From an uncultured Bacteroidia bacterium (GTDB lineage: Bacteria; Bacteroidota; Bacteroidia; Bacteroidales; UBA932): a DNA stretch of 39,050 nucleotides. The DNA lies in the NCBI GenBank assembly GCA_902784965.1, contig CACZWU010000020.1:1-39050 (forward strand). The letters are read 5' to 3'. This document shows positions 20,353 to 39,050 of this stretch, piece after piece (within the stretch, counting starts at the first letter, position 1; every line of letters begins with the position of its first letter). Both the position numbers and the translations under genes were made by a program. The notes beneath the pieces were generated by a model. That model saw nothing but the letters and a program-made list of their open reading frames with translations. It had not been told where the DNA came from and did not search any database.

Positions 20353-20355
20353 GGG

Positions 20356-21057
20356 TCAGTCTTTCTTGCGAGGCATCGGGTCGATCCGGGCGTAGTAGCG
20401 CGCATCCTTGATGATGGTCACGAAATAGATGATGATCAGGATGGCCAGGGCAGCGAGACCGGGATAGTCGAGGGCGTGGAAAAAGAGTTTCTTGCCGAAG
20501 ACGACGAAGACGCGTTCGAACTGCTGCCAGGGCTTGATGAAGATCAGCAGGGTGTTGAGGATGATGGCGAAGAGACGGAATTCCGTGGGGCCGAGGCCGG
20601 CGTAGGTGAGCTTGAATTCAGCTCTCAGGTGGGCGTTCATGCTGACGTTGAGGGTAAGCTGCAGGTAGACCACCAGCATGGCGAGGGCCGTGTAGAGGTT
20701 CAGGAACGGCGACAGGCCGATGCCCAGGAACATCATCGTCTCGTTGAGGCCGTCGACGGTATGGTCGATATAGTAGCCGTAGATGGGCCGCTGGGTGTGC
20801 CGGACGCGGGCCAGGGTACCGTCGAGCGAGTCGCCATACCAGTTGACGATCAGGCCGAAGGTGCTGAGCCAGAGCCACTGTACGCTGAAATGCGACAGGA
20901 TGTAGCCCACCATGATCAGGAAGGCGCCGAAGACGCCGATCCAGGTGAGCATGTCGGAGGTCATCCAGGCCGGCTGGCGTTCGGCCAGCCAGACGAGGGC
21001 CTTTTTCTCCAGGCCGTTGAGGAATGAGGTCTGTATTCTTTCCGCCTTCTTGTCCAT
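20356..21057 (-). CDS. CDP-alcohol phosphatidyltransferase family protein
   Basis: Integral membrane enzyme that exchanges CMP on a CDP-alcohol for another alcohol, forming a phospholipid head group. The 233-aa protein contains the full signature D-G-x2-A-R-x8-G-x3-D-x3-D at residues 79-102 (D79, G80, A83, R84, G94, D98, D102). About six transmembrane helices follow the family pattern: about 34-58, 60-74, 103-130, 135-150, 165-185, 205-225. Which alcohol it uses (inositol, glycerol phosphate, serine) cannot be decided. It is the first gene of a three-gene lipid operon with the PlsC-like and SDR genes. Confidence 0.9.
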   Translation of the reverse strand: MDKKAERIQTSFLNGLEKKALVWLAERQPAWMTSDMLTWIGVFGAFLIMVGYILSHFSVQWLWLSTFGLIVNWYGDSLDGTLARVRHTQRPIYGYYIDHTVDGLNETMMFLGIGLSPFLNLYTALAMLVVYLQLTLNVSMNAHLRAEFKLTYAGLGPTEFRLFAIILNTLLIFIKPWQQFERVFVVFGKKLFFHALDYPGLAALAILIIIYFVTIIKDARYYARIDPMPRKKD

Positions 21058-21077
21058 AATAACTATTTACCAGTCAA

Positions 21078-21085
21078 CAAAGATA
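21078..21085 (-). promoter_or_regulatory. -7 promoter element (TATCTTTG) of the lipid operon
   Basis: TATCTTTG on the minus strand, 20 nt upstream of the CDP-alcohol phosphatidyltransferase start. On the plus strand a weaker element TAACTTTA (21106-21113) sits 4 nt before the peptidase ATG. Confidence 0.6.
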
Positions 21086-21117
21086 CATGAAAAAATGAAA
21101 AAGTGTAACTTTACGGT

Positions 21118-23040: not shown

Positions 23041-23044
23041 AAAG

Positions 23045-23077
23045 AGAGGCTCGCGATTTTGCACGCGAGCCTCTTTT
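23045..23077. terminator. Bidirectional intrinsic terminator
   Basis: Perfect 11-bp stem AGAGGCTCGCG / CGCGAGCCTCT (23045-23055 and 23064-23074) with an 8-nt loop. On the plus strand TTTT follows; on the minus strand CTTTTTATTT follows. It lies between the convergent peptidase and SusD1 genes and can end both transcripts. Confidence 0.88.
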
Positions 23078-23095
23078 GAATGAACTGAAAGTGGA

Positions 23096-24643
23096 TTACA
23101 GCTGATCGTTGTAGTCAACTTCGTTCTTCGGGATCACATAGGTCCAGCGATTGCCGTCTTCCGGATTGATGGTGATGGCGAAGCTGGTGTGGAAACTGCC
23201 ACCCTGGGCGCGGCTCTTGCGCACGATGGGTTCGTTCCAGCGTTTGTAATCGTAGTAGTCGAATCCTTCACCCCAAAGGTCAATGCGGCGGTACAGCTTC
23301 ACTTCCTTCAGCAGGTCGGCTCCGGTCTTCGTGCATTTGTAGTCCGGGTCGAGGTTTTTGTTGATCTCGTTCATCAGGCTCTGGACCTGCGCGTCCTGGC
23401 CCAGGTGGCAGCGTGCTTCCGCTTCGGCGAGGGCCATTTCGGCGCCACGGTAGATATTGAAGCATCCGCCGCCCGGCATGAAGGCAGCCTGGAACTTGAA
23501 CTGCATGTAACCGTACACGAGGCTGGTGGAATACAGCTTGCCGCCATATTCAGCAAAGGCGCGTTTGTAGAGGGCGCCCGTGCTGCGGCCGGCCGCGTTG
23601 CATTCTGCCCATTCTTCAGGGGTAGGGCCGAGCCACATCTTGCGGCGGGCGTCGGTCTCCGGGATCTGATCGTAGAGCTCCTTGCTGATAGCCAGCGGAT
23701 AGGTACGCTGCATCGAAGAAGAAGCGTTGGAAGCTTGATAAGCGAAGTAGGCATAGTAGTAGATGGTCTGGTCTTCGGCTTCATACACACCCCAGATCCA
23801 TTCTTTCGGCGTAGAGCCGGTCCAGTTGCTGAAGCCGCCGTCCATATATTCGCTCTTGCTCATCAGCGGGTGGTTCTGGCGAGCCAGCGGCGCATACTTC
23901 ACGACGGTGTTCCAGTCTTCGCGGTTGAGGGCCGCGCGGGTGTATACGGCATAGGCCACGTCGATATCGGGTTTCCAGAATTCGTTGCCGCGGTTCAGAC
24001 CGGACTGCTGGTACAGGCTGATGGCCTGGTCGAGGTCAGCGTAGATCTGGGCGTAGGTCTCGCCCAGCGTGGAGAGCGGCATGCCATCGATACCCGGTTC
24101 CAGACGGAGGATGACACCAGAGGTCGAGCCGTTCTGGCTGTCCTGCCAGCGGTAACCGTAAATCATGGCCAACTGGGTGAAAGCGTGGGCACGGAAGGTA
24201 AGGGCCTGGGCCTTGATGAAGGCTTTCTCGGTGTCCGGACCTTCGGCATCGTCGATGTTGGCGATGATCTGGTTGGCGTTGCCAATGATCTTGTAGTAGT
24301 AGTACCAGGGATAGGTACAGTAGGTAGAACTGGCGTTCTGGTTGTACTGATGGTTCCAGAGGTTGGCCCAGCCGGTCTGGTTGCAGCGCTGCAGGTCGTT
24401 GCCGAAGTTGCCGAACCAGGTCTTGATGGTACCTTCGCCGTTGAGACCCTGGGTGCTCCAGTACTGGCTCGTCATCATCTTGCAGATACCGTTGACGGCC
24501 AGCACGGCATTGCCGGTCGTGGCGAAGATGGTCGCGGGAGAAGTGGAACTCTCCGGCGTGGTGTCCAGATACTCCTTGTTGCAGGAGACGCCCGTCAGCA
24601 GGATGGCTGCCGTGAGGAAGAAGGCTTTGAATATCTTTTTCAT
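23096..24643 (-). CDS. SusD/RagB family outer-membrane nutrient-binding lipoprotein (SusD1)
   Basis: Surface lipoprotein that forms the lid over its SusC partner and captures glycans or peptides. The 515-aa protein has a lipobox (LTGVSC, Cys21), the typical N-terminal start KEYLDTTPES, TPR-like helices, the SusD helix GNANQIIANID (about 117-127) and the C-terminal WGEGFDYYDYKRW block. A closely similar copy (SusD2) lies at the right edge. It begins 17 nt after SusC1, so the pair is one transcription unit, as usual. The ligand cannot be predicted: no glycosidase, regulator or sigma/anti-sigma gene lies next to the pair. Confidence 0.95.
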   Translation of the reverse strand: MKKIFKAFFLTAAILLTGVSCNKEYLDTTPESSTSPATIFATTGNAVLAVNGICKMMTSQYWSTQGLNGEGTIKTWFGNFGNDLQRCNQTGWANLWNHQYNQNASSTYCTYPWYYYYKIIGNANQIIANIDDAEGPDTEKAFIKAQALTFRAHAFTQLAMIYGYRWQDSQNGSTSGVILRLEPGIDGMPLSTLGETYAQIYADLDQAISLYQQSGLNRGNEFWKPDIDVAYAVYTRAALNREDWNTVVKYAPLARQNHPLMSKSEYMDGGFSNWTGSTPKEWIWGVYEAEDQTIYYYAYFAYQASNASSSMQRTYPLAISKELYDQIPETDARRKMWLGPTPEEWAECNAAGRSTGALYKRAFAEYGGKLYSTSLVYGYMQFKFQAAFMPGGGCFNIYRGAEMALAEAEARCHLGQDAQVQSLMNEINKNLDPDYKCTKTGADLLKEVKLYRRIDLWGEGFDYYDYKRWNEPIVRKSRAQGGSFHTSFAITINPEDGNRWTYVIPKNEVDYNDQL

Positions 24644-24660: not shown

Positions 24661-27600
24661 TTAGAATTTGAAGGTCAGGCCACCCGTGAAGACGCGGGCC
24701 GTGGTGAAGGTATTGGAGGTCGTGTTACCGGCGAAGTTCTGCTGCGGGTTCAGACCCTGGCGATACGAAAGCGTGAAGGCATTCTCGCAGGCAATGGTCA
24801 GCGTGATGGCATCCATCTCGAGGCGGTTTACCCAGCGTTTCGGAAGCGTGTACGACAGGTTGACGTTCTTCAGCACGAGGTAGTTGCCCGAAACCAGCCA
24901 GCGGTCGCAGGTACCCGCGTTGTTGTAGGAATTGTAGGTATTGTTGATCTGCGGGAAGATGTCGCGGCTGATGCGGTCGGCCGACGTCTCGGTCATGCCG
25001 GCCGGAATGCCGGTCCAGCTGTTGCGGAAGAGGTCGGCGTGGCAGCTCTTCGGGGAGCCGGTGATGCTGAGCAGGTCGCCGTAGATACCGTCGTTGACCT
25101 TGCTGCCGAGGGAGTATGTGAAGATGGTGCCGAGCGAGAGGCCCTTCCAGCTGAAGTTGAAGCCGAAGCTGCCGTAGACGGTCGGGGTGGCCGTTCCGGC
25201 CCAGTCTTTCTTGCCAAAGGAACCCGTATTGTAGATATACGGAGTGCCGTTGATGATGACATAGTCGTTGGGAGACATCAGGGTCGTGGCCTTGTCGTCC
25301 GACGGAGCGGTACCGTAGATCACGTTGCCGTCTGCCTTGTTGTTGTCGGTAATATAGAAGCGCTCGTCGTCCCAGGCGTAGAGGGAACGGCCGGTCATCT
25401 GGTCGACACCGGCCCAGTGGTACACCCAGTAGGCATAGCGGTCGCCGCCTTCGACGAAGCGCTTGTTGCCGCTGATGATGCCTTCTTCCCGGTTCTCCTC
25501 AGGGAGTTTGACGATACGGTTCTTGAGGAAGGTGGCGTTGGCGAAGATATTGAAGCGGATGTCCTTGGTACGGACCATGTCGACGTCGGTCTCGATCTCG
25601 ACGCCACGGTTGGACATCGTACCGATGTTACGGGTGATGCCCGGATTGGAGCTGCCCGTGGAGGTCGGACCGGCGGAGATCGGGAGGATCACGCTGAAGA
25701 GCAGGTCCTTGTTGCGTTTGTCGAAGTACTCGATGTTGAGGTTCCAGCGGTTGAACAGGCGGGACTCGATACCCACGCCCCAGCTTTGGGCCGTCTCCCA
25801 CATCAGTTCGTCGTTGCCCAGCTGCGAGAGGTAGTAGGCACCGGCGTTGGCGTTCTGGTTGGAGGTGTAGAGGGCCTGGTAGCCGTAGTAACCGGTACCG
25901 GCGTCGTTACCCACCTCGCCGAAGTCGGCGCGGAGTTTCAGGGAGTTGACCCAGCCCACGTTCTGCATGAAGTCCTCGCGGGAGATCATCCAGTTGGCAC
26001 CCACGCTCCAGAAGTTACCCCAGCGGGCTTTCCGGGAGAAGCGCGAGGAACCGTCGCGGCGGAAGGAAGCTTCCACGTTGTACTTGTCCTTGTAGCTGTA
26101 CCGCGCGCGGCTCAAGAAACTCTCCGTACGGTAGTTGTTGGCGTAGTTGTAGATATCGGTAATCTGCGTGAAGTTGTTCAGGTTGTTGATGTTGGGGAAC
26201 ACTTCGTTGGTCTTGTAGCCGTAGAGGTAGTCGTAATTGTTCGAGTAGTTCTCGTGGCCGAGGAGCACGTTCACGTAGTGGTCGCCGAACTGGCGGTTCC
26301 AGCGCAGCTGCTGTTGGAACGACCAGTTCTTGTAGCGGTAGTCCACGCGCTTGCCGCGGCCGGAGTTGCCTTTGCCGTCGCCAATGACGGCGCTGTCGTA
26401 CGTCTGGTTGGAGCTGTGGCGCAGGTTCATGTTACCGGTCACGGTGAAGGTGAAGTCCTTCAGGAAATAGACCTCGGCGTAGGCGATGGCGTTGATGGTG
26501 TTACGGACGGTGACGTCCTGGTTGAGTTCGTTCTCCCAAATGACGTGGCGGTCGGCATACTGGTTGCGGGTCACGACCACCTGGCCGTTCTCGTCGATGT
26601 AGGAGCCGCTGTCATACTGCTTGTTGCCCGAGGCATCCAGGATGTACTGGCCCGTGTTCACGTCGTGCAGGTGCACCGGATAGATCGGGGCGATGTTGCG
26701 GCAGTACATGAACGGGTTGATGTAGGAGTTCGAGCCGTCTGAGGTGTTGTTGAAGTTCTGGTGCGTGGCGTTGACGTTCAGGCCCACTTTCAGGTAACTG
26801 GTCGGCTTCACATTGACGGAGGCGCGGCCCGAGAAGCGGTCGAAGGTAGAAGTACGCAGGTAACCGTTCTCATCGAGGTAACCCACGGAGAAGTAGTAAT
26901 CGGCCTTGTCGGAGGCGCCGTTGGCGCTCACGTTATAGTCGGCACGGTAGCCGTTCCGGATGGTCTGGTCGAACCAGTTGAGGTCGTCGAGATAGCCGTT
27001 CTTGATCGAGGCGTTCGACACGAGGTGTCCTTCGCTGTCGAAGAGGGCGTTGTCGGCCACGTTGTAGATGTTCAGGTAGAGTTTGTCGGCGATCAGGTTA
27101 TTCGCTACGTACTGATGGGCGGCGGCACGTTTGGTCGCGTCCTGTGCCGTAGCCACGATGTCGTCATACGACATGTCGAGCGTCGGATAGAGCGTGCGGT
27201 TGAAGAGCTCGAGATAAGAGATCTCCATGAACTCATCGGCCGAAGCGTAGTCGTATTCCTTCATACCGCGCTGGTACATACCCTGGTTCACGCTGGCGGT
27301 CACGTTGACGCGGCCGCTCTTGCCTTTCTTGGTGGTGATCAGGATCACACCGTTGGCGGCGCGGTTACCGTAGAGGGCTGCGGAAGCAGCGTCCTTCAGG
27401 ACGGTCAGTGACTCGATGTCGGTCGGGTTCAGGTCGGAGATGTTGCCCCCAAAGGGCACACCGTCGATCACATAGAGCGGAGAGGTGGAACCGTTGATGG
27501 TACCGTTACCGCGGATCATGATGCTCGGCTCGGAACCCGGGGCACCGTAGGAGTTGTTGACCTGGACGCCGGTCACGGTACCTTCAAGGGCCGAGGTGAC

Positions 27601-28017
27601 CGAAGAGGTCGGACGGGCTTCCAGTTTCTCGGCGTCCACATTCGAGATGGCACCCGTCAGGGACGATTTCTTGGCGGCGCCGTAGGCGATGGTGATCACC
27701 GCCTCTTCGAGGTTTTCGGTGTCGGGAGCCAGGAGGATGTTGATGACTGCGCGGCCGTTCACTTCGGCTTCCTGGTTGATGTAACCGATGGAGCTGAAGA
27801 TAAGGGTAGCATTTTTCGGCACACTAATTGTGTAGTTACCGTCAGCATCCGTCGCGGTGCCGGTCATCGTGCCTTTTACCTGGATGGAGGCAAACGGCAC
27901 ACCTTCGCCGGAGGAGGCGTCTGTCACGGTACCGCTGACGTTTATGTTTTGAGCAAGAGCGACTTGGCTCAAAACCGCGGTTACGAGGCAGAGGAGAAAG
28001 AATGACAATTTTCTCAT
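24661..28017 (-). CDS. SusC/RagA family TonB-linked outer-membrane transporter (SusC1)
   Basis: Outer-membrane TonB-dependent importer that works with SusD1. The 1118-aa protein has a signal peptide (about 1-22), a carboxypeptidase-regulatory-like beta-sandwich (about 25-105, GTVTDASSGEGVPFASIQVKG), a plug domain (about 115-235, with SIMIRGNGTI, PLYVIDGVPF and ANGVILITTKKGK), and a large beta-barrel ending in the terminal aromatic LTFKF. SusC2 at 34277 is nearly the same length (1117 aa) and highly similar throughout. Differences cluster in short patches that probably correspond to extracellular loops. The promoter is a full consensus, and its leader contains a 24-bp sequence repeated before SusC2. 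Confidence 0.96.
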   Translation of the reverse strand: MRKLSFFLLCLVTAVLSQVALAQNINVSGTVTDASSGEGVPFASIQVKGTMTGTATDADGNYTISVPKNATLIFSSIGYINQEAEVNGRAVINILLAPDTENLEEAVITIAYGAAKKSSLTGAISNVDAEKLEARPTSSVTSALEGTVTGVQVNNSYGAPGSEPSIMIRGNGTINGSTSPLYVIDGVPFGGNISDLNPTDIESLTVLKDAASAALYGNRAANGVILITTKKGKSGRVNVTASVNQGMYQRGMKEYDYASADEFMEISYLELFNRTLYPTLDMSYDDIVATAQDATKRAAAHQYVANNLIADKLYLNIYNVADNALFDSEGHLVSNASIKNGYLDDLNWFDQTIRNGYRADYNVSANGASDKADYYFSVGYLDENGYLRTSTFDRFSGRASVNVKPTSYLKVGLNVNATHQNFNNTSDGSNSYINPFMYCRNIAPIYPVHLHDVNTGQYILDASGNKQYDSGSYIDENGQVVVTRNQYADRHVIWENELNQDVTVRNTINAIAYAEVYFLKDFTFTVTGNMNLRHSSNQTYDSAVIGDGKGNSGRGKRVDYRYKNWSFQQQLRWNRQFGDHYVNVLLGHENYSNNYDYLYGYKTNEVFPNINNLNNFTQITDIYNYANNYRTESFLSRARYSYKDKYNVEASFRRDGSSRFSRKARWGNFWSVGANWMISREDFMQNVGWVNSLKLRADFGEVGNDAGTGYYGYQALYTSNQNANAGAYYLSQLGNDELMWETAQSWGVGIESRLFNRWNLNIEYFDKRNKDLLFSVILPISAGPTSTGSSNPGITRNIGTMSNRGVEIETDVDMVRTKDIRFNIFANATFLKNRIVKLPEENREEGIISGNKRFVEGGDRYAYWVYHWAGVDQMTGRSLYAWDDERFYITDNNKADGNVIYGTAPSDDKATTLMSPNDYVIINGTPYIYNTGSFGKKDWAGTATPTVYGSFGFNFSWKGLSLGTIFTYSLGSKVNDGIYGDLLSITGSPKSCHADLFRNSWTGIPAGMTETSADRISRDIFPQINNTYNSYNNAGTCDRWLVSGNYLVLKNVNLSYTLPKRWVNRLEMDAITLTIACENAFTLSYRQGLNPQQNFAGNTTSNTFTTARVFTGGLTFKF

Positions 28018-28041
28018 AATGATGTTTTAGGTTAAAATAAT
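28018..28041. repeat. 24-bp inverted repeat, left copy (SusC1 leader)
   Basis: Read on the minus strand, this 24-bp stretch (core TTTTAACCTAAAACATC) is identical to 34252-34275 on the plus strand. It ends immediately before the SusC1 start codon. Sequence on both sides differs between the two loci, so the identity is sharply bounded. It is either a recombination site or a conserved part of the SusC leader. Confidence 0.8.
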
Positions 28042-28089
28042 AATTGTATTTGGTTTGTTTTCTTATGTAGACAATCCACACAATTTGGG

Positions 28090-28120
28090 CAAAGATACAA
28101 TTTTTTCAAAAGACAACAAA
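28090..28120 (-). promoter_or_regulatory. Consensus promoter of SusC1/SusD1 (TTTG-N19-TATCTTTG)
   Basis: On the minus strand a -33 TTTG (28117-28120) and a -7 TATCTTTG (28090-28097) are separated by 19 nt, a full match to the Bacteroidetes consensus. A leader of about 65 nt follows before the ATG. It is the only promoter in the window for which both boxes are exact. Confidence 0.75.
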
Positions 28121-28126
28121 GAATAA

Positions 28127-28182
28127 GGGCGGTTTTCTTTCGGAAACCGCCCCTTTTTGACAATTTTTTGACAAAAATTGTC
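28127..28182 (-). terminator. Terminator region after mutB (two hairpins)
   Basis: Two stems lie between mutB and the SusC1 promoter. The first, next to the mutB stop, is GACAATTTTT / AAAAATTGTC (28159-28168 and 28173-28182). The second is GC-rich, GGGCGGTTT / AAACCGCCC (28127-28135 and 28144-28152), followed by TTATTC on the minus strand and by CTTTTT on the plus strand. Together they should separate mutAB transcription from SusC1. Confidence 0.7.
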
Positions 28183-28184
28183 GT

Positions 28185-30326
28185 TTAGTCTTCGAACTTC
28201 TGGTTCAGCAGCTCGATCATCTTGATGGCTGCCTTGGCGATCGGGGTGCCAGGGCCGAAGATGGCCACGGCGCCGTCGCGGTAGAGTTCGTCGTAGTCCT
28301 GGGCCGGGATCACACCGCCCACCACCACGAGGATGTCTTCACGGCCGAGTTTCTTGAGCTCTGCGATGATCTGCGGGACGAGGGTCTTGTGGCCGGCGGC
28401 CAGCGAGGAGACGCCCACGATGTGCACGTCGTTCTCGACAGCCTGGCGGGCAGCCTCTTCCGGGGTCTGGAAGAGCGGGCCCATGTCCACGTCGAAACCG
28501 CAGTCAGCATAACCGGTGGCCACCACCTTGGCGCCGCGGTCGTGACCGTCCTGGCCGAGCTTGGCCACCATGATACGGGGCTGACGGCCTTCCTTCTTGG
28601 CGAATTCGGCCACCATCTTCTTGGCGAGCTCAAACTCGCTGTCGTTTTTCACTTCTGAGGAGTAAACACCAGTGTTCATACGGATTACGGCTTTGTAACG
28701 TCCAACAATCTTTTCGCAGGCATCGGAGATCTCGCCCAGCGTGGCACGGGCCTTGGCGGCCTCGATGGCCAGGGCGAGCAGGTTGCCCGTCTTGGTCTCC
28801 ACGGCGTGAGTGATGGCGTTCAGGCAGGCCTGGACCTTGGCTTCGTCGCGGTGGGCGCGGAGGTCTTTCAGGCGGGCGATCTGCGATTCACGCACCTTCG
28901 TGTTGTCGACGTCAAGAATCTCGATGGGATCTTCGTGCTCCAGGCGGAACTCGTTGATACCGATGATCTTCTCCAGGCCGGAGTCGATGCGGGCCTGCTT
29001 GCGTGCGGCGGCTTCCTCAATACGGAGCTTCGGCACGCCGGTCTCGATGGCCTTGGCCATGCCGCCGAGGCTCTCGACTTCCTGGATGTGGGCCCAGGCC
29101 TTGTGCGCGAGCTCGTTGGTGAGGCTCTCCACGTAGTAGGAACCGGCCCAAGGGTCGATGGAACGGCACACCTGGGTTTCTTCCTGGATGTAGATCTGGG
29201 TGTTACGGGCGATACGCGCGGAGAAGTCGGTCGGCAGGGCGATGGCCTCGTCGAGCGCGTTGGTGTGCAGCGACTGCGTGTGGCCGAGGGCGGCGCCCAT
29301 GGCCTCGATGCAGGTACGGGCCACGTTGTTGAACGGGTCCTGCTCGGTGAGCGACCAGCCGGAGGTCTGGCAGTGGGTACGGAGCGACTGGCTCTTCGGG
29401 TTCTTCGGGTTGAACTGGCCCACGATCTTGGCCCACAACATACGGGCAGCGCGCATCTTGGCGATCTCCATGAAGTGGTTCATGCCGATGGCCCAGAAGA
29501 ACGACAGGCGCGGTGCGAAGGCATCGACGTCGATGCCGGCCTTGATACCGGTGCGGATGTATTCCATACCGTCGGCCAGGGTGTAGGCCATCTCGATGTC
29601 GTTGGTCGCACCGGCTTCCTGCATATGGTAGCCGGAGATCGAGATCGAGTTGAATTTGGGCATGTACTGCGAGGTGAAGGCGAAGATGTCGCCGATGATA
29701 CGCATCGAGAACTCAGGCGGATAAATATAGGTATTACGCACCATGAATTCCTTGAGGATGTCGTTCTGGATGGTACCGGCCATCTCTTCTAGCTTGACGC
29801 CCTGCTCCAGGCCGGCCACGATGTAGAAGGCCATAATCGGGAGGACGGCGCCGTTCATCGTCATGGAGACGGACATCTTGCCGAGCGGGATCTGGTCGAA
29901 GAGGACCTTCATGTCCTCGACGGAGCAGATCGACACGCCAGCTTTGCCCACGTCGCCCACCACGCGCGGGTGGTCGGCGTCGTAGCCACGGTGGGTAGCC
30001 AGGTCGAAGGCCACGGAGAGGCCTTTCTGGCCGGCAGCCAGGTTGCGGCGGTAGAAGGCGTTGGATTCCTCAGCCGTGGAGAAACCGGCATACTGGCGGA
30101 TGGTCCAGGGCTTGTTGACGTACATCGTGGAGTACGGGCCACGGAGGAACGGGGCGATGCCGGCGGCATAGTTGAGGTGTTCCATGCCTTCGAGGTCGGC
30201 GGACGTGTAGAGCGGCTTCACGTCGATATGTTCAGGCGTGTGCCAGAGCTCTTCTTCTTTATTCTTGCAGGCGCACTTGGGCGTGGCGCCCTTCGTGTAG
30301 TCGATATCGTTGAATTTCGGTCTCAT
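28185..30326 (-). CDS. mutB: Methylmalonyl-CoA mutase large subunit
   Basis: Catalytic subunit of adenosylcobalamin-dependent methylmalonyl-CoA mutase, which interconverts succinyl-CoA and (R)-methylmalonyl-CoA in the succinate-propionate pathway of Bacteroidetes. The 713-aa length fits MutB. The N-terminal TIM barrel includes the substrate-contact start [20 protein letters not shown] (about residues 93-112). The C-terminal B12-binding domain has the cobalt-ligand motif DGHDRG with H595 and later GVSSLAAGH. The linker contains [10 protein letters not shown]. It follows mutA by 15 nt and is intact, but the neighbouring small-subunit gene has a frameshift. Confidence 0.97.
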
Positions 30327-30341
30327 TGTCTGTCCTCCTGA

Positions 30342-32215
30342 TTAAAGTTCCTTGACGCCCAGTGCCTTCTGATACTCCCTGAGGGTATCGAGCACGTTGC
30401 ATTTCACATGGATGTAGTGGTTGATGCCCTGCTCCTCGAGCTGCGGACGGCACTCGGGGTCGCCGGCGACCACCACGATGGCCTTGTCGCCGATAAGCTG
30501 GGCGATCTTGGGAACGTTCTCGAGGTACTCGTCGTCGGCCGAGCAGGCCACGACGATGTCGGCCTTGGCCTTGAGGGCGGCCTCGACGCCTTCCTCGATG
30601 GTGGAGAAGCGGTTGTTGTCGACCACCTTGAAACCGGCGATCGCGAAGAAGTTGCAGCTGAACTGGGCACGGGCACGGCACATGGCCAGGTTGCCGAAGG
30701 TCAGCATGAAGGCCATCGGCTGGCGGTCGTTGCGGTCGGTGGCCAGGCGCATGGCCTCAAACGGCTGGGCGCCGCGGTAAGCGCCAAGCGGCTCGGCCAT
30801 CTTCTCGTCGCAGCCACAACCCTTGGCGTCGCAGCATCCAGCCCCGCGGGTGACGATCTCTTTGGTGATCTCGTCGCCGGCTTTCTCGAGGAAGTTCGGG
30901 AACTGGTTGGTGCCCAACAGGGTCTCGCGGCTTTGTCTTTCTTGTCGGAGACGGCCTTTACCTGCTCCTGGACGAAGCCGGCCTTGAAAGCCTCGGTATA
31001 GCCGCCCTTCTCCTCGACGTCCTTGAAGAGTTTCCAGGAAGCGTCGATGATCGACTGGGTGAGTTCTTCAATATAATAGGAGCCACCGGCAGGGTCGATG
31101 ATCTTATTGAAATGCGATTCTTCCTTGAGGATCGACTGGACGTTGCGGGCGATGCGGTTCGAGAATTCGCCGGGTGCGCGGAACACCTGGTCGAAGGGCA
31201 GCACCTCGATGGAGTCGACGCCGGCGATGGCGGCGCTCATGGTCTCGGTGGTACCGCGGAGCATGTTGACGTAGGCGTCATAGACCGTCTGGTTCCACTG
31301 GCTGGTAACGGCGTGCACGTGCATCTTGCAGGCGCAGTCGCTTTCGACGCCCCAGGCACGGACGATGTTGGCCCAGATCACGCGGCCGGCGCGGAACTTG
31401 GCGATCTCCATGAAATAATTGGAGCTGATGCCGAAGGTGAACTTGATGCGGCGGGCCACTTCCTCGGCGGTGAAGCCGCGTTCGGTGAGCTTGGCGATGT
31501 ATTCGTTGCCGATGGCTACGCCGAAGGCAAGTTCCTGCACGAGGCTGGAGCCGGCGTCATTGAAGTCATAAGCCTGTACGTTGATGACCTTGATCTTCGG
31601 GAAGTCGGCGACGGCCTTGACGGCGTTGGACAGGAAGCCGAAAGCCTTGTCCTCACAGAAGCTGCCCTTGACGGTGAGGCGGTGGAGCGGGCTGAAATCG
31701 AACGAGGCGCGGACCTCTTCCGGTTTGACGCCCTGTTTCCTGACCACGGCCAGGAAGCTCTTGAGGGTCTCCGCACTGTGCTTGGGGCAGCACTTGCGGA
31801 AGTTGATCTCCACGGCGGGGATGCAGATACCCTTGAGCAGGGCTTCCATTTCGGCCTCGGAGAGATCTTTCTTCTCACCCAGCACGAAGCCCAGCGATTC
31901 GACGCCCTTGTTCAGGATGTCGAGGGCTTCGGCATTGGCCTTTTCGATGCCCTGACACAGGCAAATGTCCTGGCGGGTGAGCCAGTTGTTGTCGGTCTTG
32001 ATGCCGCGGACGAACGGGAATTGTCCGGGCATCTCGCCCAAAGACTTGATGTCGGGCAGGTTCTCGGCCCGATAGTACGGACGGACCGGGAAGCCTTCGT
32101 GGGTCTTCCATACGAGTTTCTTCTCGTAATCGGCACCCTTCAAGTCCTTGATAATTACCGCATCCCACTGCTCTGTCGTAACAGGAGGAAATTCAGTAAA
32201 CAGTTTTTCTGCCAT
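30342..32215 (-). pseudogene. mutA: Methylmalonyl-CoA mutase small subunit, frameshifted as sequenced
   Basis: Non-catalytic partner of MutB in the heterodimeric mutase. Two frames together cover a full MutA. Residues 1 to about 428 are read from the ATG at 32215, through the TIM-barrel half with AAIAGVDSIEVLPFDQ and DPAGGSYYIEEL. The remainder is in the next frame from about 30930 down to 30342, with the degenerate B12-like domain (AIAGFKVVDNN, VVVACSADDEYL). The break is at the GCGG/C step around 30927-30931, where one missing base, probably a C on the coding strand, shifts the frame. Restoring it gives 624 aa, the usual size. The downstream part has no good start (only a TTG at 30917). It may be a true mutation, an assembly error, or less likely a programmed shift. 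Confidence 0.88.
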
Positions 32216-32271
32216 TTTTATACGATTTAGTTATAGTGTGTTTGAATTTGAGTCAAACTTCCTTAATCCTG

Positions 32272-32279
32272 CAAATTTA
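32272..32279 (-). promoter_or_regulatory. -7 promoter element (TAAATTTG) of mutAB
   Basis: TAAATTTG on the minus strand, 56 nt upstream of the mutA start. No cobalamin riboswitch fits in the short leader. Confidence 0.55.
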
Positions 32280-32291
32280 AGATTTATTTCT

Positions 32292-32299
32292 TATATTTG
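32292..32299 (+). promoter_or_regulatory. -7 promoter element (TATATTTG) of the esterase gene
   Basis: TATATTTG on the plus strand, 17 nt before the ATG at 32317. It is divergent from the mutA element 12 bp to the left. Confidence 0.6.
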
Positions 32300-32316
32300 A
32301 AATCGAAAATACCGCT

Positions 32317-33258
32317 ATGAAAAGAATTTTGATATTTTTATCGGCCCTTTGCCTAAGCCTGTCTCTTTTCGCGCAGACCCCTATCGATAGTACACGTTGC
32401 AAGCCCGACGAATCGATCGCTTTCGCACAGTATGATACCCTGACCCTGGAGATGGACCTCTATTTCCCGAACGACGACGCCGAGACCCATCCCTGCATCA
32501 TTTTCAGCTACGGAGGAGGTTTCATCATGAACAACCAGCGTCATTTCGAGATCCAGCGGCTCTGCCGGCAGCTGGCCGACGACGGTTTCGTGGTAGTGGC
32601 CAGCGACTACCGTCTGGGCCTGCGTGGCGTGAAGTTCAAGGGTCCCCTGTCGATGATCAAGCCCCTCGAGAACGCCGTGCAACTGGCCGCGGAAGACGTG
32701 ATGAAGGTTACCCGCTACGTGCTGGACTACGCCCCCGAGCTGACCGTCGACCCCTGGAAGATCATCCTGATGGGCAGTAGTGCCGGCGCCATCACCTCAC
32801 TCCAGTGCGACTTCGAGCGCTGCAACCGCACGGAACTGGCCCAGCGCTACCTTCCGGAGGGTTTCCGCTACGCAGGCGTAGCTGCCTTCGCCGGCGCCAT
32901 CTTCTCGCGCAAAGGCCTGGAATACAAGTACGACATGCCGGCCCCCACCTTCTTCCTGCACGGAACGGCCGACAAACTGGTCCCGTACAAGAAAGTCAGC
33001 TTCTTCGGTACGGGTTTCTTCGGCTCCGACCGCATTGCCCGGCATTTCAAGGAGCGGCATTATGCCTACAAGATCATGCGTTTCCAGGATGAGGGACACC
33101 GGGTAGCCGTGCGTTATTTCGCCAACTACGACGACCTCCGCTGGTTCCTCGACAAGATGGTGATCGAGGGACTGCATCTCGAGATCGACGAATCGTACAA
33201 CGACCCGTTCCGGCAGCCCTCACATTGGGATGACTATAGCCCTAACGATTTGTATTAG
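32317..33258 (+). CDS. Exported alpha/beta-hydrolase (carboxylesterase/lipase-like)
   Basis: Predicted secreted serine esterase. The 313-aa protein has a signal peptide (about 1-20, cut after FAQ), an oxyanion-hole-like motif SYGGGF (64-69, a Tyr variant of the usual His-Gly-Gly-Gly), and the nucleophile elbow GSSAGA with S155. The acid is D219 in HGTADKLVPY and the catalytic His is H261 in DEGHRVA. The triad order and spacing fit the hormone-sensitive-lipase/acetyl-esterase group. Substrate is unknown. Its stop overlaps the stop of the convergent recombinase by 4 nt, and its likely terminator lies inside that gene. Confidence 0.87.
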   Translation: MKRILIFLSALCLSLSLFAQTPIDSTRCKPDESIAFAQYDTLTLEMDLYFPNDDAETHPCIIFSYGGGFIMNNQRHFEIQRLCRQLADDGFVVVASDYRLGLRGVKFKGPLSMIKPLENAVQLAAEDVMKVTRYVLDYAPELTVDPWKIILMGSSAGAITSLQCDFERCNRTELAQRYLPEGFRYAGVAAFAGAIFSRKGLEYKYDMPAPTFFLHGTADKLVPYKKVSFFGTGFFGSDRIARHFKERHYAYKIMRFQDEGHRVAVRYFANYDDLRWFLDKMVIEGLHLEIDESYNDPFRQPSHWDDYSPNDLY

Positions 33259-34181
33259 AGATTTTTGCAGATATCATTCTCGACTTTCGAGAGACTTTCA
33301 GCCAGGATGGCCATGTCCTGGCTGATTTTTTTGTTGGTAATCCTGGCGTAGATCTGCGTGGTGCGGATGTTCGTGTGCCCGAGGATGCGGCTCAGGGTTT
33401 CGACCGGCATGCCCCGGTTGAGTGCCAGCGTGGCGAAGGTGTGCCGCCCCACATGGAACGTGAGGTGTGTGCGGAAGCCGCAACGACGCTCCAGCGCATG
33501 CAGGTGACCATTGCAGCAATTGTTGCTGGGCACGGGAAACAGCTGTCCTCCCGGTGACGCGTCCCTGTATTTTTCGATGAGCCGCAGCGGCACATCGAGC
33601 AGCCGCACGTCCGATTCAACCCGCGTTTTGTGCCGACGCATTACGATCCACCAGTTCCCGTCGAAGAGTTGCCGGAGGTGCTCCGTGCGCAGGTTCCGGA
33701 TATCGATGTACGACAGGCCGGTGAAGGCAGAGAAAAGAAAAAGGTCGCGCACCAGTTCCTCTACTCCAGAGACGGCCGGCTCCTGCATCAACCGCACCAG
33801 TTCCTCTTCTGTGAGATAGCCCCGGTCCACGGGCGTGTAGGCATTGACATATGAGGCGAAAGGGTTGACCATCAGCAGGTTCTCTTCGCGGGCCAGCGAG
33901 AGCACGTGCTTGAGGGTAATCATGTAGCCCCAGACACTGTTGGGTGACAGATGCCGCTGCACGCGCAGCCAGGTATCGAAGCCGGTGACGAAAGAGGCGC
34001 GCAGGGAACTGAGCGGGATGTCGTCCCGCCGGCACTGTTCCCGAACGTATCTTTCCAGATGCCCGTACACGGTCTGGTATCGCGCAAAACTGCCCCAGGC
34101 GCGGCTGTTGCCCACCCGCCGGGCATATTCGGCATTGTGGCGCGCAAAATACGCCAGCACCCCGATCGTGGTCTTTCTCAT
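33255..34181 (-). CDS. Bacteroidetes-type tyrosine recombinase (IntDOT-like active site)
   Basis: Site-specific DNA recombinase. The 308-aa protein has an N-terminal SAM-like core-binding domain (about 5-105) and a catalytic domain (about 120-300). Visible catalytic residues are K185, H243 and R246 (HVGR), H269 (ILGHTN) and the nucleophile Y278 (TTQIYAR). The first catalytic Arg, normally within TGLR, is Ser157 (FTGLSYID); the CTnDOT integrase IntDOT likewise has Ser at this position. Size and lack of a DNA-binding arm domain fit chromosomal invertase-type enzymes of Bacteroidales rather than large integrative-element integrases. It starts 95 nt from SusC2, in divergent orientation, and lies inside the segment bounded by the 24-bp inverted repeat. 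No other mobile-element genes are nearby. Confidence 0.92.
   Translation of the reverse strand: MRKTTIGVLAYFARHNAEYARRVGNSRAWGSFARYQTVYGHLERYVREQCRRDDIPLSSLRASFVTGFDTWLRVQRHLSPNSVWGYMITLKHVLSLAREENLLMVNPFASYVNAYTPVDRGYLTEEELVRLMQEPAVSGVEELVRDLFLFSAFTGLSYIDIRNLRTEHLRQLFDGNWWIVMRRHKTRVESDVRLLDVPLRLIEKYRDASPGGQLFPVPSNNCCNGHLHALERRCGFRTHLTFHVGRHTFATLALNRGMPVETLSRILGHTNIRTTQIYARITNKKISQDMAILAESLSKVENDICKNL
33298..33332 (+). terminator. Intrinsic terminator of the esterase gene, inside the recombinase coding region
   Basis: Perfect 10-bp stem TCAGCCAGGA / TCCTGGCTGA (33298-33307 and 33316-33325) with an 8-nt loop and a following run of seven T. It lies 40 nt past the esterase stop and within the 3' part of the recombinase gene on the opposite strand. 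Only the plus-strand direction has the T-run. Confidence 0.8.
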
Positions 34182-34251
34182 CCGTAGTAGATACTAATTT
34201 GTCCTAAATTTAACACCATTTTTCCATATTTCAAACTATTTCCCATCGATG
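34182..34251. promoter_or_regulatory. Divergent recombinase/SusC2 control region with degenerate promoter
   Basis: AT-rich gap between the recombinase start and the 24-bp repeat. Facing SusC2, the best -7 candidate is TAATTTG (34195-34201), one base short of TAnnTTTG and at nearly the same distance from the ATG as the SusC1 element. A symmetric TAAATTTA (34205-34212) could serve either direction. No exact -33 box pairs with them. Transcription of SusC2 in the present orientation therefore looks weak. Confidence 0.4.
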
Positions 34252-34275
34252 ATTATTTTAACCTAAAACATCATT
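34252..34275. repeat. 24-bp inverted repeat, right copy (SusC2 leader)
   Basis: Perfect copy, in opposite orientation, of 28018-28041; it ends one base before the SusC2 ATG. The two copies bound a segment of about 6.2 kb. Confidence 0.8.
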
Positions 34276-34276
34276 T

Positions 34277-37200
34277 ATGAGGAAACTTAGAATTGTGTTT
34301 ACCTGCCTTTTGACTGTTTTGGCACTGGGAACCGCCCTGGCGCAGAACATCACGGTCAAGGGTGTGGTGACTGACTCCGCCACCGGCGAAGGTGTTCCTT
34401 TTGCCTCGATCCAGGTAAAGGGCACGATGACCGGTACCGCCACCGATGGAGACGGCAACTACTCCATCGACGTCCCCAAAAATGCAACGCTGATCTTCAG
34501 CTCCATCGGCTACCTGAACCAGGAAGTCGCCGTCGAGGGCCGCTCGCTCATCAACGTGATCCTGGCCACCGATACGGAGAACCTCGAAGAAGCGGTGATC
34601 ACCATCGCTTACGGCGCCGCCAAGAAATCGTCCCTGACGGGTGCCATCTCGAACGTGGGCGCTGAAAAACTCGAATCCCGCCCGACCTCCTCGGTCACCT
34701 CGGCCCTCGAAGGTACGGTGACCGGTGTCCAGGTCAACAATACCTACGGCGCCCCGGGTTCCGACCCTTCCATCATCATCCGTGGTAATGGTACCATCAA
34801 TGGTTCCTCCAGCCCGCTCTACATCATCGACGGCGTTCCGTTCGGCGGCAACATCTCCGACCTGAACCCGGCCGATATCGAGTCGCTGACCGTCCTGAAG
34901 GACGCTGCTTCCGCAGCCCTCTACGGTAACCGCGCCGCCAACGGCGTGATCCTGATCACCACCAAGAAGGGCAAATCGGGCCGCGTCAACGTGACGGCCA
35001 GTGTTACCCAGGGTGTGTACCAGCGCGGTATTCCCGAGTACAATTATGCAACGGCCAACGAATTCATGGAGGTTTCATACAAAGAGCTCAAGAACCGTAC
35101 GCTCATTCCGTCCGCCATTACCGACGCCGAAATCATTGCGAAGTACCAGGATGCTTCGGCGCTGGCTGATGCCGCCAACTATGCGGCCAACAACCTGATC
35201 GCCGACAAACTCTACCTAAACATCTACAACGTGGCCGACAACGCCCTCTTCGACAGCAACGGACACCTCGTGTCGAATGCGTCCATCAAGAACGGCTACC
35301 TCGACGACCTCAACTGGTTCGACCAGACCATCAAGAATGGCTATCGTGCCGACTACAACGTGACGGCCAGCGGCGCCAGCGAGAAGAGCGACTATTTCTT
35401 CTCCATGGGTTATCTCGATGAGAACGGCTACCTGCGCAATGCGACCTTCGACCGTTTCTCGGGCCGTGCCTCTGCCAACGTGAAACCGACCAGCTACCTG
35501 AAAGTGGGTCTGAACGTCAACGCCACGCACCAGAACTTCAACAACATGGATGCCGGTTCAAGTGCCTACGTGAACCCGTTCATGTACTGCCGTAACATCG
35601 CCCCGATCTATCCGGTGCACCTGCACGATATCAATACGGGTGAGTATCTCCTCGATGAATTCGGCAACAAACAGTATGATGGCGGTTCCTACGTCGACGC
35701 CAACGGCCAGGTGGTCGTGACCCGTAACCAGTATGCCGACCGCCACGTCATCTGGGAGAACGAACTCAACCAGGACGTCTCCGTCCGTAACACCATCAAC
35801 GCCATCGCCTATGCCGAGGTCTATTTCCTGAAGGACTTCACCTTCACGGTGACTGGCAACATGAACCTGCGCCACAGCATCAACAAGAGCTATGACAGCG
35901 CGGTCATCGGCGACGGTAAGGGCAACGGCGGCCGCGGAAGCCGTACCGATTATTACTATAAGAACTGGTCCTTCCAACAGCAGCTGCGCTGGAACCGTCA
36001 GTTCGGCGACCACTACGTGAACGTGCTCATCGGCCACGAGAACTTCGACTATCGTTACGACTACCTCTACGGCTACAAGACCTCCGAGGTGTTCACCGGC
36101 ATCAACAACCTCCGCAACTTCACGGAAATCACGAACCTCTACAGCTACGGCAACTACTACAAGACCGAATCGTACCTGAGCCGCGTACGCTACAGCTACC
36201 AGGACAAGTACAACGTGGAAGCTTCCTTCCGCCGCGATGGTTCCTCTCGTTTCTCCTCCCAGGCCCGCTGGGGTAACTTCTGGAGCGTGGGTGCCAACTG
36301 GCTGATCTCCCGCGAGGCCTTCATGCAGAATGTGGGCTGGGTCAACACCCTGAAACTCCGCGCCGACTTCGGTGAGGTAGGTAACGACGCCGGTACCGGC
36401 TACTACGGCTACCAGGCTCTCTATTCCTCCGGACAGAATGCCAACAAGGGTGCTTACTGGCTGAGCCAGCTGCCGAACCCCGAACTGATGTGGGAGACGG
36501 CCCAGAGCTGGGGTGTCGGTATCGAGTCCCGCCTGTTCAACCGCTGGAACCTGAACGTCGAGTACTTCGACAAACGCAACAAAGACCTGATCTTCGACGT
36601 GTATCTGCCGTACTCCGCAGGTGCCATCTCCACCTCCGGCAACCCGTACATCACGAAGAACATCGGTACGATGTCCAACCGTGGCGTCGAGATTGAAACC
36701 GACTTCGACGTGGTCCGCACCAAGGATGTCCGCTTCAACATCTTCGCCAACGCCACCTTCCTCAAGAGCAAGATTATCAAGCTCCCGGAAGAGAACCGCG
36801 AAGACGGTATCATCGATGGTACCAAGAAGTATGTCGAAGGCGGTGACCGCTATGCATACTATCTGTATCACTGGGCCGGTGTCGACCAGATGACGGGCCG
36901 TTCCCTCTACACCTTCGACGACGAGAACTGGTATATTACCGATAACAACAAAGAAGACGGTAATGTCATCTATGGTAGCAAGACCGACAAGAAGGGCAAC
37001 GAAAACAGCGTGATGAGCGCAAGCGACTACACCGTGATCAACGGAACGCCTTACGTGTACAAGCCCAGCTCCTATGGCAAGCGCGACTGGTGTGGTACGG
37101 CCACCCCGACCGTCTACGGCAGCTTCGGCTTCAACTTCAGCTGGAAGGGCCTGTCCCTCGGTACGGTATTTACCTATTCGCTGGGTGCCAAGGCCTATGA

Positions 37201-37630
37201 CAGCATTTACGGCAGCCTCGTGAGCGTCGGCGCTACGCCGAGCAGCGTCCACCACGACGTGTTGAAGAAGGCTTGGGACGGCATCCCGGCCGGTATGACC
37301 GAGTCTTCGGCCGACCGCATCAGCCGTGACATCTTCCCGGTGATCAACAACACCTACAGCTCCGACAACGATGCCGGTACTTCCGATCGCTGGTTGATCT
37401 CCGGCAACTATCTCGTGCTGAAGAACGTCAACCTGACCTATTCTCTGCCCAAACGTTGGGTCAATCGCATCGAGATGGATGGTATCAACGTGACCGTTTC
37501 TTGCGAAAACGCTTTCACCCTCACGCACCGTAAGGGTATGAACCCGCAGCAGAACTTCAGCGGTACGGTCGGCAACAACACCTATGTGACCGCCCGTGTG
37601 ATCACCGCAGGCCTGACCTTCAAATTCTAA
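34277..37630 (+). CDS. SusC/RagA family TonB-linked outer-membrane transporter (SusC2)
   Basis: Paralogue of SusC1 with the same domain order: signal peptide (about 1-22), carboxypeptidase-regulatory-like domain (GVVTDSATGEGVPFASIQVKG), plug (SIIIRGNGTI, PLYIIDGVPF, ANGVILITTKKGK) and beta-barrel ending in LTFKF. Its length is 1117 aa. Identity with SusC1 is very high in the plug and barrel strands, with a 59-bp stretch that is identical at DNA level (34886-34944). Changes cluster around residues 260-300 and in the loops near residues 780-790, 870-900 and 1000-1010. The signal peptide DNA is clearly diverged. SusD2 follows after 19 nt. Confidence 0.96.
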   Translation: MRKLRIVFTCLLTVLALGTALAQNITVKGVVTDSATGEGVPFASIQVKGTMTGTATDGDGNYSIDVPKNATLIFSSIGYLNQEVAVEGRSLINVILATDTENLEEAVITIAYGAAKKSSLTGAISNVGAEKLESRPTSSVTSALEGTVTGVQVNNTYGAPGSDPSIIIRGNGTINGSSSPLYIIDGVPFGGNISDLNPADIESLTVLKDAASAALYGNRAANGVILITTKKGKSGRVNVTASVTQGVYQRGIPEYNYATANEFMEVSYKELKNRTLIPSAITDAEIIAKYQDASALADAANYAANNLIADKLYLNIYNVADNALFDSNGHLVSNASIKNGYLDDLNWFDQTIKNGYRADYNVTASGASEKSDYFFSMGYLDENGYLRNATFDRFSGRASANVKPTSYLKVGLNVNATHQNFNNMDAGSSAYVNPFMYCRNIAPIYPVHLHDINTGEYLLDEFGNKQYDGGSYVDANGQVVVTRNQYADRHVIWENELNQDVSVRNTINAIAYAEVYFLKDFTFTVTGNMNLRHSINKSYDSAVIGDGKGNGGRGSRTDYYYKNWSFQQQLRWNRQFGDHYVNVLIGHENFDYRYDYLYGYKTSEVFTGINNLRNFTEITNLYSYGNYYKTESYLSRVRYSYQDKYNVEASFRRDGSSRFSSQARWGNFWSVGANWLISREAFMQNVGWVNTLKLRADFGEVGNDAGTGYYGYQALYSSGQNANKGAYWLSQLPNPELMWETAQSWGVGIESRLFNRWNLNVEYFDKRNKDLIFDVYLPYSAGAISTSGNPYITKNIGTMSNRGVEIETDFDVVRTKDVRFNIFANATFLKSKIIKLPEENREDGIIDGTKKYVEGGDRYAYYLYHWAGVDQMTGRSLYTFDDENWYITDNNKEDGNVIYGSKTDKKGNENSVMSASDYTVINGTPYVYKPSSYGKRDWCGTATPTVYGSFGFNFSWKGLSLGTVFTYSLGAKAYDSIYGSLVSVGATPSSVHHDVLKKAWDGIPAGMTESSADRISRDIFPVINNTYSSDNDAGTSDRWLISGNYLVLKNVNLTYSLPKRWVNRIEMDGINVTVSCENAFTLTHRKGMNPQQNFSGTVGNNTYVTARVITAGLTFKF

Positions 37631-37649
37631 TGTAATGAAAATGAAAGAT

Positions 37650-39050
37650 ATGAAAAAGATATTCCTCTCTTCTCTGATGCTGGCCGTTTTCCTTTTGGCG
37701 GGTACTTCCTGCTCCAAGGAATATCTGGAAACGCGTCCGGAAAGTTCCGCTTCCCCGGCCACGATCTTCGAGACTACCGACAACGCGGTGCTGGCCATCA
37801 ATGGTATCTGCAAGTTAATGACCACCCAGTACTGGAGTGTCCAGGGCCTCAACGGCGAAGGTTCCATCAAGACCTGGTGGGGCAACTTCGGCAATGACCT
37901 GCAGCGCTGCAACCACACGGGTTGGGCCACTGTTTGGAATCACCAGTATAATGATAGTGCCAACAGCCGTTATGCTTCTTACCCCTGGTGGTACTACTAC
38001 AAGATCATCGGCAATGCCAATCAGGTGATCGCGAACATCGACAATGCCGAAGGCCCGGAGGCTGAGAAACAGTTCATCAAGGCCCAGGCCCTGACTTTCC
38101 GTGCCCACGCTTTCACGATGCTGGCAGAGATGTACATCTACCGCTGGTCTGAGACCAACAACGGTGCCGGCAAGGGCCTCGTCCTTCGTCTGGACACCTC
38201 CACGGGTGACATGCCGCTTTCCACCGCCGGTGAGACCTATGCACAGATCTACGCCGACCTCGATGAGGCTATCAGCCTGTATACTCAGTCCGGCCTCGAC
38301 CGTGGCTCCGATGAGTTCTACAAACCGAACCTTGACGTGGCCTATGCCGTCTATGCCCGTGCCGCCCTCAACCGTGAGGACTGGTCGACGGTCGTGAAGT
38401 ATGCGCCGCTGGCCCGTAAGAACCACCCGCTGATGAGCCAGAAAGAGTATATGGACGGCGGTTTCAGCGACTATACCGGTACCACCCCGAAGGAGTGGAT
38501 CTGGGGTGTGTATGAGGCATCCGACCAGACCCTCTATTACTATTCGTTCTTTGCTTATCAGGCTTCCAACGCTTCTTCTTCGATGCAGCGTACCTATCCG
38601 CTCGCCATCAGCAAGGAGCTCTACGACCAGATTCCGGAGACCGACGTGCGTCGCAAGATGTGGCTCGGCCCGACGCCGGAGGAGTGGGCTGAATGCAACT
38701 CTGCCGGCCGCAGCACGAAGACCCTCTACAACCGTGCAAAGAAAGAATATGCCAGCAAGCTGTACTCCACCAGCCTGATCTATGGTTACATGCAGTTCAA
38801 GTTCCTGGCATCCTTCATGCCGGGCGGCGGTTCTTTCAACATCTACCGTGGTGCGGAGATGGTGCTCGCCGAAGCTGAGGCACGCTGCATGATGGGCGGA
38901 CAGGACGCTCAGGTCCAGGCGCTCCTCAACGAGCTGAACAAGAACCTCGACGCTTCGTACAACTGCACCAAGACGGGTGCCGACCTGCTGAAGGAAGTCA
39001 AGCTGTATCGCCGCATCGACCTCTGGGGCGAGGGCTTCGACTACTACGAT
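37650..39050 (+). CDS. SusD/RagB family outer-membrane lipoprotein (SusD2), cut by the window edge
   Basis: Partner lipoprotein of SusC2 and paralogue of SusD1. The frame is open to the end of the window (467 codons visible). The lipobox is LLAGTSC, and the mature start KEYLETRPES parallels SusD1. The shared helix GNANQVIANID and the end of the visible part, RIDLWGEGFDYYD, also match, so about 45 residues are missing. In-frame ATGs at 37635 and 37641 are alternative starts; 37650 is preferred because it aligns with the SusD1 start, including the preceding GAT. Confidence 0.93.
   Translation, partial: MKKIFLSSLMLAVFLLAGTSCSKEYLETRPESSASPATIFETTDNAVLAINGICKLMTTQYWSVQGLNGEGSIKTWWGNFGNDLQRCNHTGWATVWNHQYNDSANSRYASYPWWYYYKIIGNANQVIANIDNAEGPEAEKQFIKAQALTFRAHAFTMLAEMYIYRWSETNNGAGKGLVLRLDTSTGDMPLSTAGETYAQIYADLDEAISLYTQSGLDRGSDEFYKPNLDVAYAVYARAALNREDWSTVVKYAPLARKNHPLMSQKEYMDGGFSDYTGTTPKEWIWGVYEASDQTLYYYSFFAYQASNASSSMQRTYPLAISKELYDQIPETDVRRKMWLGPTPEEWAECNSAGRSTKTLYNRAKKEYASKLYSTSLIYGYMQFKFLASFMPGGGSFNIYRGAEMVLAEAEARCMMGGQDAQVQALLNELNKNLDASYNCTKTGADLLKEVKLYRRIDLWGEGFDYYD

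Follow-up and report, generated by a model that had tools for sequence, protein, structure and literature searches.

Two SusC/SusD operons face away from each other in the genome of an uncultured Bacteroidia bacterium, and each begins beside one copy of a perfect inverted repeat. This raises the question of whether the copies are recombination sites, inversion between which would hand a single promoter from one operon to the other, or simply a leader shared by SusC genes. The window, i.e. the whole stretch of 39,050 nucleotides that was analysed, is contig C20 in full; its source genome (G000) comprises 1.87 Mb in 59 contigs and is 78% complete. From sequence comparison, we consider it probable that positions 28018–34275 form an invertible cassette, in which a resident tyrosine recombinase would swap sites in the SusC leaders and one inner promoter would serve either operon.

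Layout of the locus and its one-sided promoter

From left to right, the locus consists of flank A, SusD1 and SusC1 (−), mutB, mutA, an esterase (+), a tyrosine recombinase (−), and SusC2 and SusD2 (+), with the following features:

18701–23118 (−): flank A landmark genes, encoding a short-chain dehydrogenase, an acyltransferase, a CDP-alcohol phosphatidyltransferase-like protein and a 683-aa protein without a Pfam match
23096–24643 (−): SusD1
24661–28017 (−): SusC1, at the promoter end of the segment, adjoining flank A
28018–28041 (−): left copy of the inverted repeat, proposed recombination site and SusC1 leader
28090–28119 (−): Bacteroides-type promoter match TTG-N19-TATCTTTG, within the segment and facing outward, toward SusC1
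28125–28154 (−): terminator-like hairpin (hairpin scan) in the interval between mutB and the promoter
28185–30326 (−): mutB, methylmalonyl-CoA mutase large subunit
30342–32215 (−): mutA, methylmalonyl-CoA mutase small subunit, in two frames here
32317–33258 (+): esterase-like alpha/beta hydrolase
33255–34181 (−): tyrosine recombinase, proposed invertase (Phage_integrase and Phage_int_SAM_5 domains)
33298–33325 (+): terminator-like hairpin (hairpin scan) 3′ of the esterase, before SusC2
34252–34275 (+): right copy of the inverted repeat, proposed recombination site and SusC2 leader
34277–37630 (+): SusC2, at the recombinase end
37635–39050 (+): SusD2, truncated by the contig end

Domain matches and gene coordinates agree with the first-pass annotation in placing a tyrosine recombinase, mutAB and the esterase between the repeat copies, with a promoter facing SusC1. 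The mutA gene occupies two overlapping frames in the window, against a single frame of ~628 aa in most relatives; the split may be an assembly error or real.

Both copies of the 24-bp repeat, ATTATTTTAACCTAAAACATCATT, match exactly, as had been claimed; the left copy abuts the SusC1 ATG (28017) directly, and the SusC2 ATG (34277) lies one base beyond the right copy. Its last 23 bases, allowing up to three mismatches, occur twice in the window, compared with no copies in 100 shuffles, and these same two places are the sole copies in the genome assembly (1.87 Mb, 78% complete). The sharp loss of identity described on both sides of the repeat is likewise present. When the two window ends are compared, the 80 nt preceding the last 22 bases of the leader are 48% identical and the first 75 nt of the SusC genes 61% identical, against 79–82% beyond. 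In a related genome, G051, the two SusC genes are identical over their last 99 readable bases. This identity, together with the step from 61% to 79–82% in the window pair, points to possible gene conversion within the pair.

Promoters were called with the pattern TTG-N(17-20)-TAnnTTTG, facing outward and with TAnnTTTG 80–90 bp upstream of the SusC ATG; TAnnTTTG is a Bacteroides promoter box (PMC4747536). An E. coli-type promoter scan, which returned 6 sites against 2.3 expected, was discarded for promoter calls in favour of this box. Across the window and the related genomes described below, the pattern is matched at 13 of 14 mutB ends (shuffled regions hold the box in 7–19% of cases) and at one of ten recombinase/esterase ends, which are shorter (shuffled, 1–5% per region for the nine without it). 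Both exceptions come from G053, in which no recombinase was found: this genome has no match at the mutB end and one at the esterase end. The promoter is thus one-sided in 9/9 recombinase-carrying genomes with both ends readable; in the window, no TAnnTTTG box was found in the interval between SusC2 and the recombinase gene. Terminator-like hairpins in the region number 8, with 6.7 expected by chance; a hairpin 3′ of the esterase recurs in G007, G022, G055 and G006, with none found in G043, G051, G042 or G054.

The cassette and its flanks in related genomes

Of the genus genomes, 34/40 have mutB matches with E ≤ 1e-100, and surroundings were taken from 20 of the 34. The same mutAB–esterase cassette is present in 13 of these 20 (G007, G022, G006, G023, G054, G017, G051, G042, G055, G002, G053, G052 and G043; truncated in mutA in G017), with mutB identities of 96–98% over the full length or 95–100% in pieces; the other seven loci have mutAB in a different arrangement. 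A whole or partial recombinase accompanies the cassette in 10/13 relatives. It is whole in eight (G007, G022, G006, G054, G051, G042, G055 and G043), occupying the identical position in all eight, lies in two contig pieces in G052 and is broken in G023. No recombinase was found next to the cassette of G002 or G053, and the G017 contig ends before the position of this gene. In G023 (contig C58, L085), the broken recombinase lies at 4432–4891 and that end has no SusC; the switch in this genome may be locked. In G043 (L094), the sequence beside the recombinase start (5713) lacks the site and resembles the leftover of a SusC plug region; the close relative G054 retains the site.

Landmark flanks, defined by clustering of neighbouring proteins, were used to read the orientation of the cassette. 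Flank B borders the mutB end in G007, G022, G055, G002, G043 and G006; G052 has it at the recombinase end. The neighbour of the mutB end in the window and in G052 is flank A, which is found at the recombinase/esterase end in G007, G023 and G002, separated from the esterase end in G002 by ~14 kb of other genes. A further neighbourhood, C, lies at the recombinase/esterase end in G055, G043, G006 and G053. The window contig ends inside SusD2, so flank B is not visible in the window itself; G052 is on three contigs, with both key junctions inside contigs and no N in the stretches used. The assignment covers the cassette genomes except G042, G051, G054 and G017; from SusC signal-peptide type, weaker evidence than the flanks, G042 looks unflipped and G051 flipped.

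The opposite orientation, which the first-pass annotation had suggested seeking in related genomes, is therefore present, with flanks A and B swapped between cassette ends. Judged by these flanks, both orientations occur among close species, which requires at least one inversion. A tree of cassette DNA, with good support for 3/11 inner branches, places the window, G052 and G023 together in a supported group, with G007 next to it. A single past inversion would account for both flank-placed flipped genomes (the window and G052), since these share the supported group with G023. Contig ends near the cassette (G051, G042, G054 and G017) were considered as a sign of live inversion and set aside; the G051 ends share 99 identical bases, and a plain repeat suffices there.

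The point at which the orientations diverge can be located by comparing the two sides of the leader separately. Over the 80 nt that precede the 22-nt leader core, mutB ends are 56–71% identical to each other whatever the flank, whereas mutB and recombinase ends are 37–51% identical; among recombinase ends, the window and G052 share 60% and other pairs 44–45%. The first 75 nt of SusC behave differently. The flank-B gene of G007, at the mutB end, is 92% identical to that of G052 and 89% identical to that of the window, both at the recombinase end; the corresponding values for the flank-B gene of G022 are 87% and 85%. The flank-A genes of the window and G052 share 87%, and these mutB ends are 59–65% identical to flank-B mutB ends. 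The agreement extends into the body of the protein, the flank-B SusC of G052 (recombinase end) being 93% identical over residues 351–1118 to that of G007 and 92% to that of G055 (both mutB end). On these comparisons, what lies left of the repeat goes with the cassette end and the SusC start goes with the flank, which places the break within ~20 bp.

Not every comparison fits this pattern. Left of the core, recombinase ends other than those of the window and G052 are not alike, and two SusC genes also stand out. Among flank-B SusC starts, that of G055 shares 62–73% identity with those from the window, G052 and G007, and 59% with the one from G022. The flank-A SusC of G007 opens with 75 nt that are 60–62% identical to the flank-A SusC genes of the window and G052, with 58% identity to the window gene further on; by these values it is not the counterpart of the flank-A SusC of the window. 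Its first 36 nt are the same as those of the flank-B SusC of its own genome, giving a 58-bp repeat. Overall, SusC bodies at the cassette locus fall into at least four families, with residues 1–110 being more alike.

Leader, proposed recombination site and recombinase

The 24-bp repeat represents one variant of a leader motif found more widely before SusC genes. Matches to the TonB plug domain number 17 in G000, and the best TTTAAYCTAAAA match in the 60 nt before these gene starts has no mismatches in both window SusC genes, one mismatch in two further leaders, two mismatches in another two and at least three in 11, one of which is truncated by a contig end. Sequences resembling TTAACCTAAAA lie ~20 bp upstream of other TonB-receptor gene starts in G000. 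A second, related leader, TAACCTAAAATTTCATCTATGTTCG, was found with up to two mismatches in 18/40 genus genomes (downstream context viewed in G000, G006 and G010), and a copy of the 20-bp core with one mismatch precedes a 141-aa non-SusC gene in G043 and G054. The genome-wide search proposed in the first-pass annotation thus gave a divided answer: the 23-mer, at up to three mismatches, was found only at the two window sites, but looser core matches precede other TonB-receptor genes. The strict pattern TTTTAAYCTAAAAN(2-3)TCAT occurs in 3/7 genomes searched, always at cassette ends (two in the window, two in G007 and one in G022), and was not found in the other four (G002, G050, G012 and G020). 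From the spread of leader matches in G000 and the restriction of the strict pattern to cassette ends, the recombination site appears to be a special form of the leader, such that leader and site coincide.

Two other contigs of G000, L182 (C47, from base 29) and L183 (C33, from base 1), open at the same SusC leader and signal peptide, as would result had the assembly been interrupted by a second SusC repeat or shufflon.

Within the site, TAAYC has the same variable base at the two ends in 9/9 recombinase-carrying genomes with both ends readable (4 C, 5 T; permutation p=0.008, or p=0.05 when the window, G052 and G007 are counted as one). These nine include G006 and G055, which have no SusC beyond the recombinase-end site; in G053, which lies outside this count and has no recombinase, the base differs between ends. 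The bases after TAAAA agree in 3/7 genomes with SusC at both ends. Agreement at TAAYC would be expected of a crossover region that needs a match, albeit in a small sample.

Nine aligned recombinases share invariant K185, H243, R246, H269 and Y278, and have Ser or Ala at the position of the first catalytic arginine; a comparable change at this arginine is present in IntDOT. An AlphaFold2 model of the recombinase, which was left out of the argument, has a mean pLDDT of 65 and a pTM of 0.46, with residues 244–295 below 50. The resident protein has three further matches in G000. Paralogous recombinases, ~50% identical and flanked by inverted leader copies with the same core, are found in G010 and G006. 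In contig C46 of G010 (L186), three SusC starts share 46–54 bp (1332–1379, 2703–2750 and 8203–8256) in both orientations around a paralogous recombinase, and this is likely a second type of shufflon. Contig C99 of G006 (L185; 6.9 kb) carries a SusC-like gene and a paralogous recombinase, with inverted copies of the second leader at 55 and 6815, and ends just past each SusC start.

The proposed switch, its rivals and its relation to known systems

In the mechanism that we propose, the resident tyrosine recombinase would join and swap the two inverted sites, each of which lies in a SusC 5′ leader (core TTTAAYCTAAAA). The one promoter within the cassette, at the mutB end, would read out across the site into the adjoining SusC/SusD operon, and the operon at the recombinase end, having no such promoter, would probably be silent. 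Inversion would then exchange the active and silent operons, giving two states from one promoter inside and two operons outside. Expression of mutAB and the esterase is probably independent of cassette orientation, because their start regions lie inside the cassette. The inversion switch put forward in the first-pass annotation draws support from the opposite orientation in relatives and from the one-sided promoter; catalysis by this enzyme, switching within a population, its rate and the change of expression are inferences.

Other explanations can be weighed against this mechanism. The 24 bp could be a mere conserved SusC leader, left by an inverted duplication and with no recombination there, an alternative that the first-pass annotation itself had raised. 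It is right in so far as similar leaders precede other TonB-receptor genes of G000 and the related leader recurs across the genus; however, it leaves unexplained the exchange of flanks and SusC genes between the cassette ends with a break at the repeat, the persistence of the core at the recombinase end of G006 and G055 without a SusC, and the presence of an identical repeat beside SusC starts that are only 61% identical. We regard it as quite improbable. Alternatively, the cassette may have flipped once or a few times, through a rare rearrangement or ordinary homologous recombination involving the inverted SusC pair, and become fixed in each species, with the recombinase having some other job. 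The window SusC genes are indeed similar over 3.3 kb, and the tree needs one flip for both flank-placed cases. Nonetheless, a crossover inside SusC would keep SusC starts with cassette ends, whereas the observed starts follow the flanks, with the break within the ~20 bp before the ATG; the constant position of the recombinase in the eight relatives with the whole gene and the maintenance of the one-sided promoter wherever a recombinase is present also make this history unlikely.

A third explanation accepts inversion and assigns it to a recombinase encoded elsewhere, the resident gene being a bystander or regulator. The lack of the first catalytic arginine in the resident enzyme and the three further matches to it in the genome would be compatible with this, as would the action of B. 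fragilis invertases on distant sites (PMC4747536). The linkage of gene and site, and the strict site pattern, which among the seven genomes searched was seen at cassette ends alone, argue against it, and we give it very little probability.

Control of the B. fragilis SusC/SusD shufflons by Tsr0667 was reportedly described by Nakayama-Imaohji in 2009. The site motif of Tsr0667 is AGTYYYN4GDACT, which on direct reading is absent from the 24-bp repeat; the window therefore has another site sequence. These shufflons operate under the tyrosine recombinase Tsr0667 (PMC4747536, PMC11852207, PMC5729914) and have in common with the window inverted repeats at SusC starts and a tyrosine recombinase, which in the window is encoded inside the segment and may act on the sites (PMC5729914, PMC4747536, PMC12632263, PMC10939037, PMC11852207, PMC3090145). 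A further likeness, for the window as judged from its sequence, is that inversion of a large segment would place one or other SusC/SusD pair behind a promoter. A shufflon is marked by inverted repeats that lie at or beside the starts of at least two SusC genes; these are present here, and sequence together with the between-species comparison indicates that inversion changes the SusC/SusD pair downstream of the promoter. The arrangement differs in that a single segment has the two SusC/SusD pairs beyond its ends, holds the promoter and recombinase inside and carries mutAB and the esterase as cargo. It also differs from shufflons with several inversions among at least three sites, G000 having only two (up to three mismatches). 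Simple invertible promoters of Bacteroides (Mpi and Tsr19; PMC4747536) similarly have a TAnnTTTG-box promoter within the inverting segment, but the window segment is 6.2 kb long and contains genes, and two alternative targets replace on/off control. The window cassette is thus a variant of the Bacteroides SusC/SusD shufflon; it is not described in the titles and abstract openings among the literature matches listed, a coverage outside which subscription papers mostly fall.

The locus would extend SusC/SusD switching to an uncultured genus known here from metagenome assemblies only, with a core metabolic operon carried on an apparent surface-receptor switch. It provides a candidate site and enzyme that are testable in E. 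coli, and since each of the four junctions is known to single-base precision, switch states could be read from existing metagenomes. More tentatively, the cassette may be a genus-wide receptor platform, in which the mutAB housekeeping operon is built into an invertible element and at least four SusC/SusD families have been exchanged at its ends via the conserved leader; we hold this as a possibility rather than an expectation. If so, mutAB would make the switch and its recombinase hard to lose, and one short sequence would act at once as a leader, as a site of recombination and as a docking point for incoming receptors.
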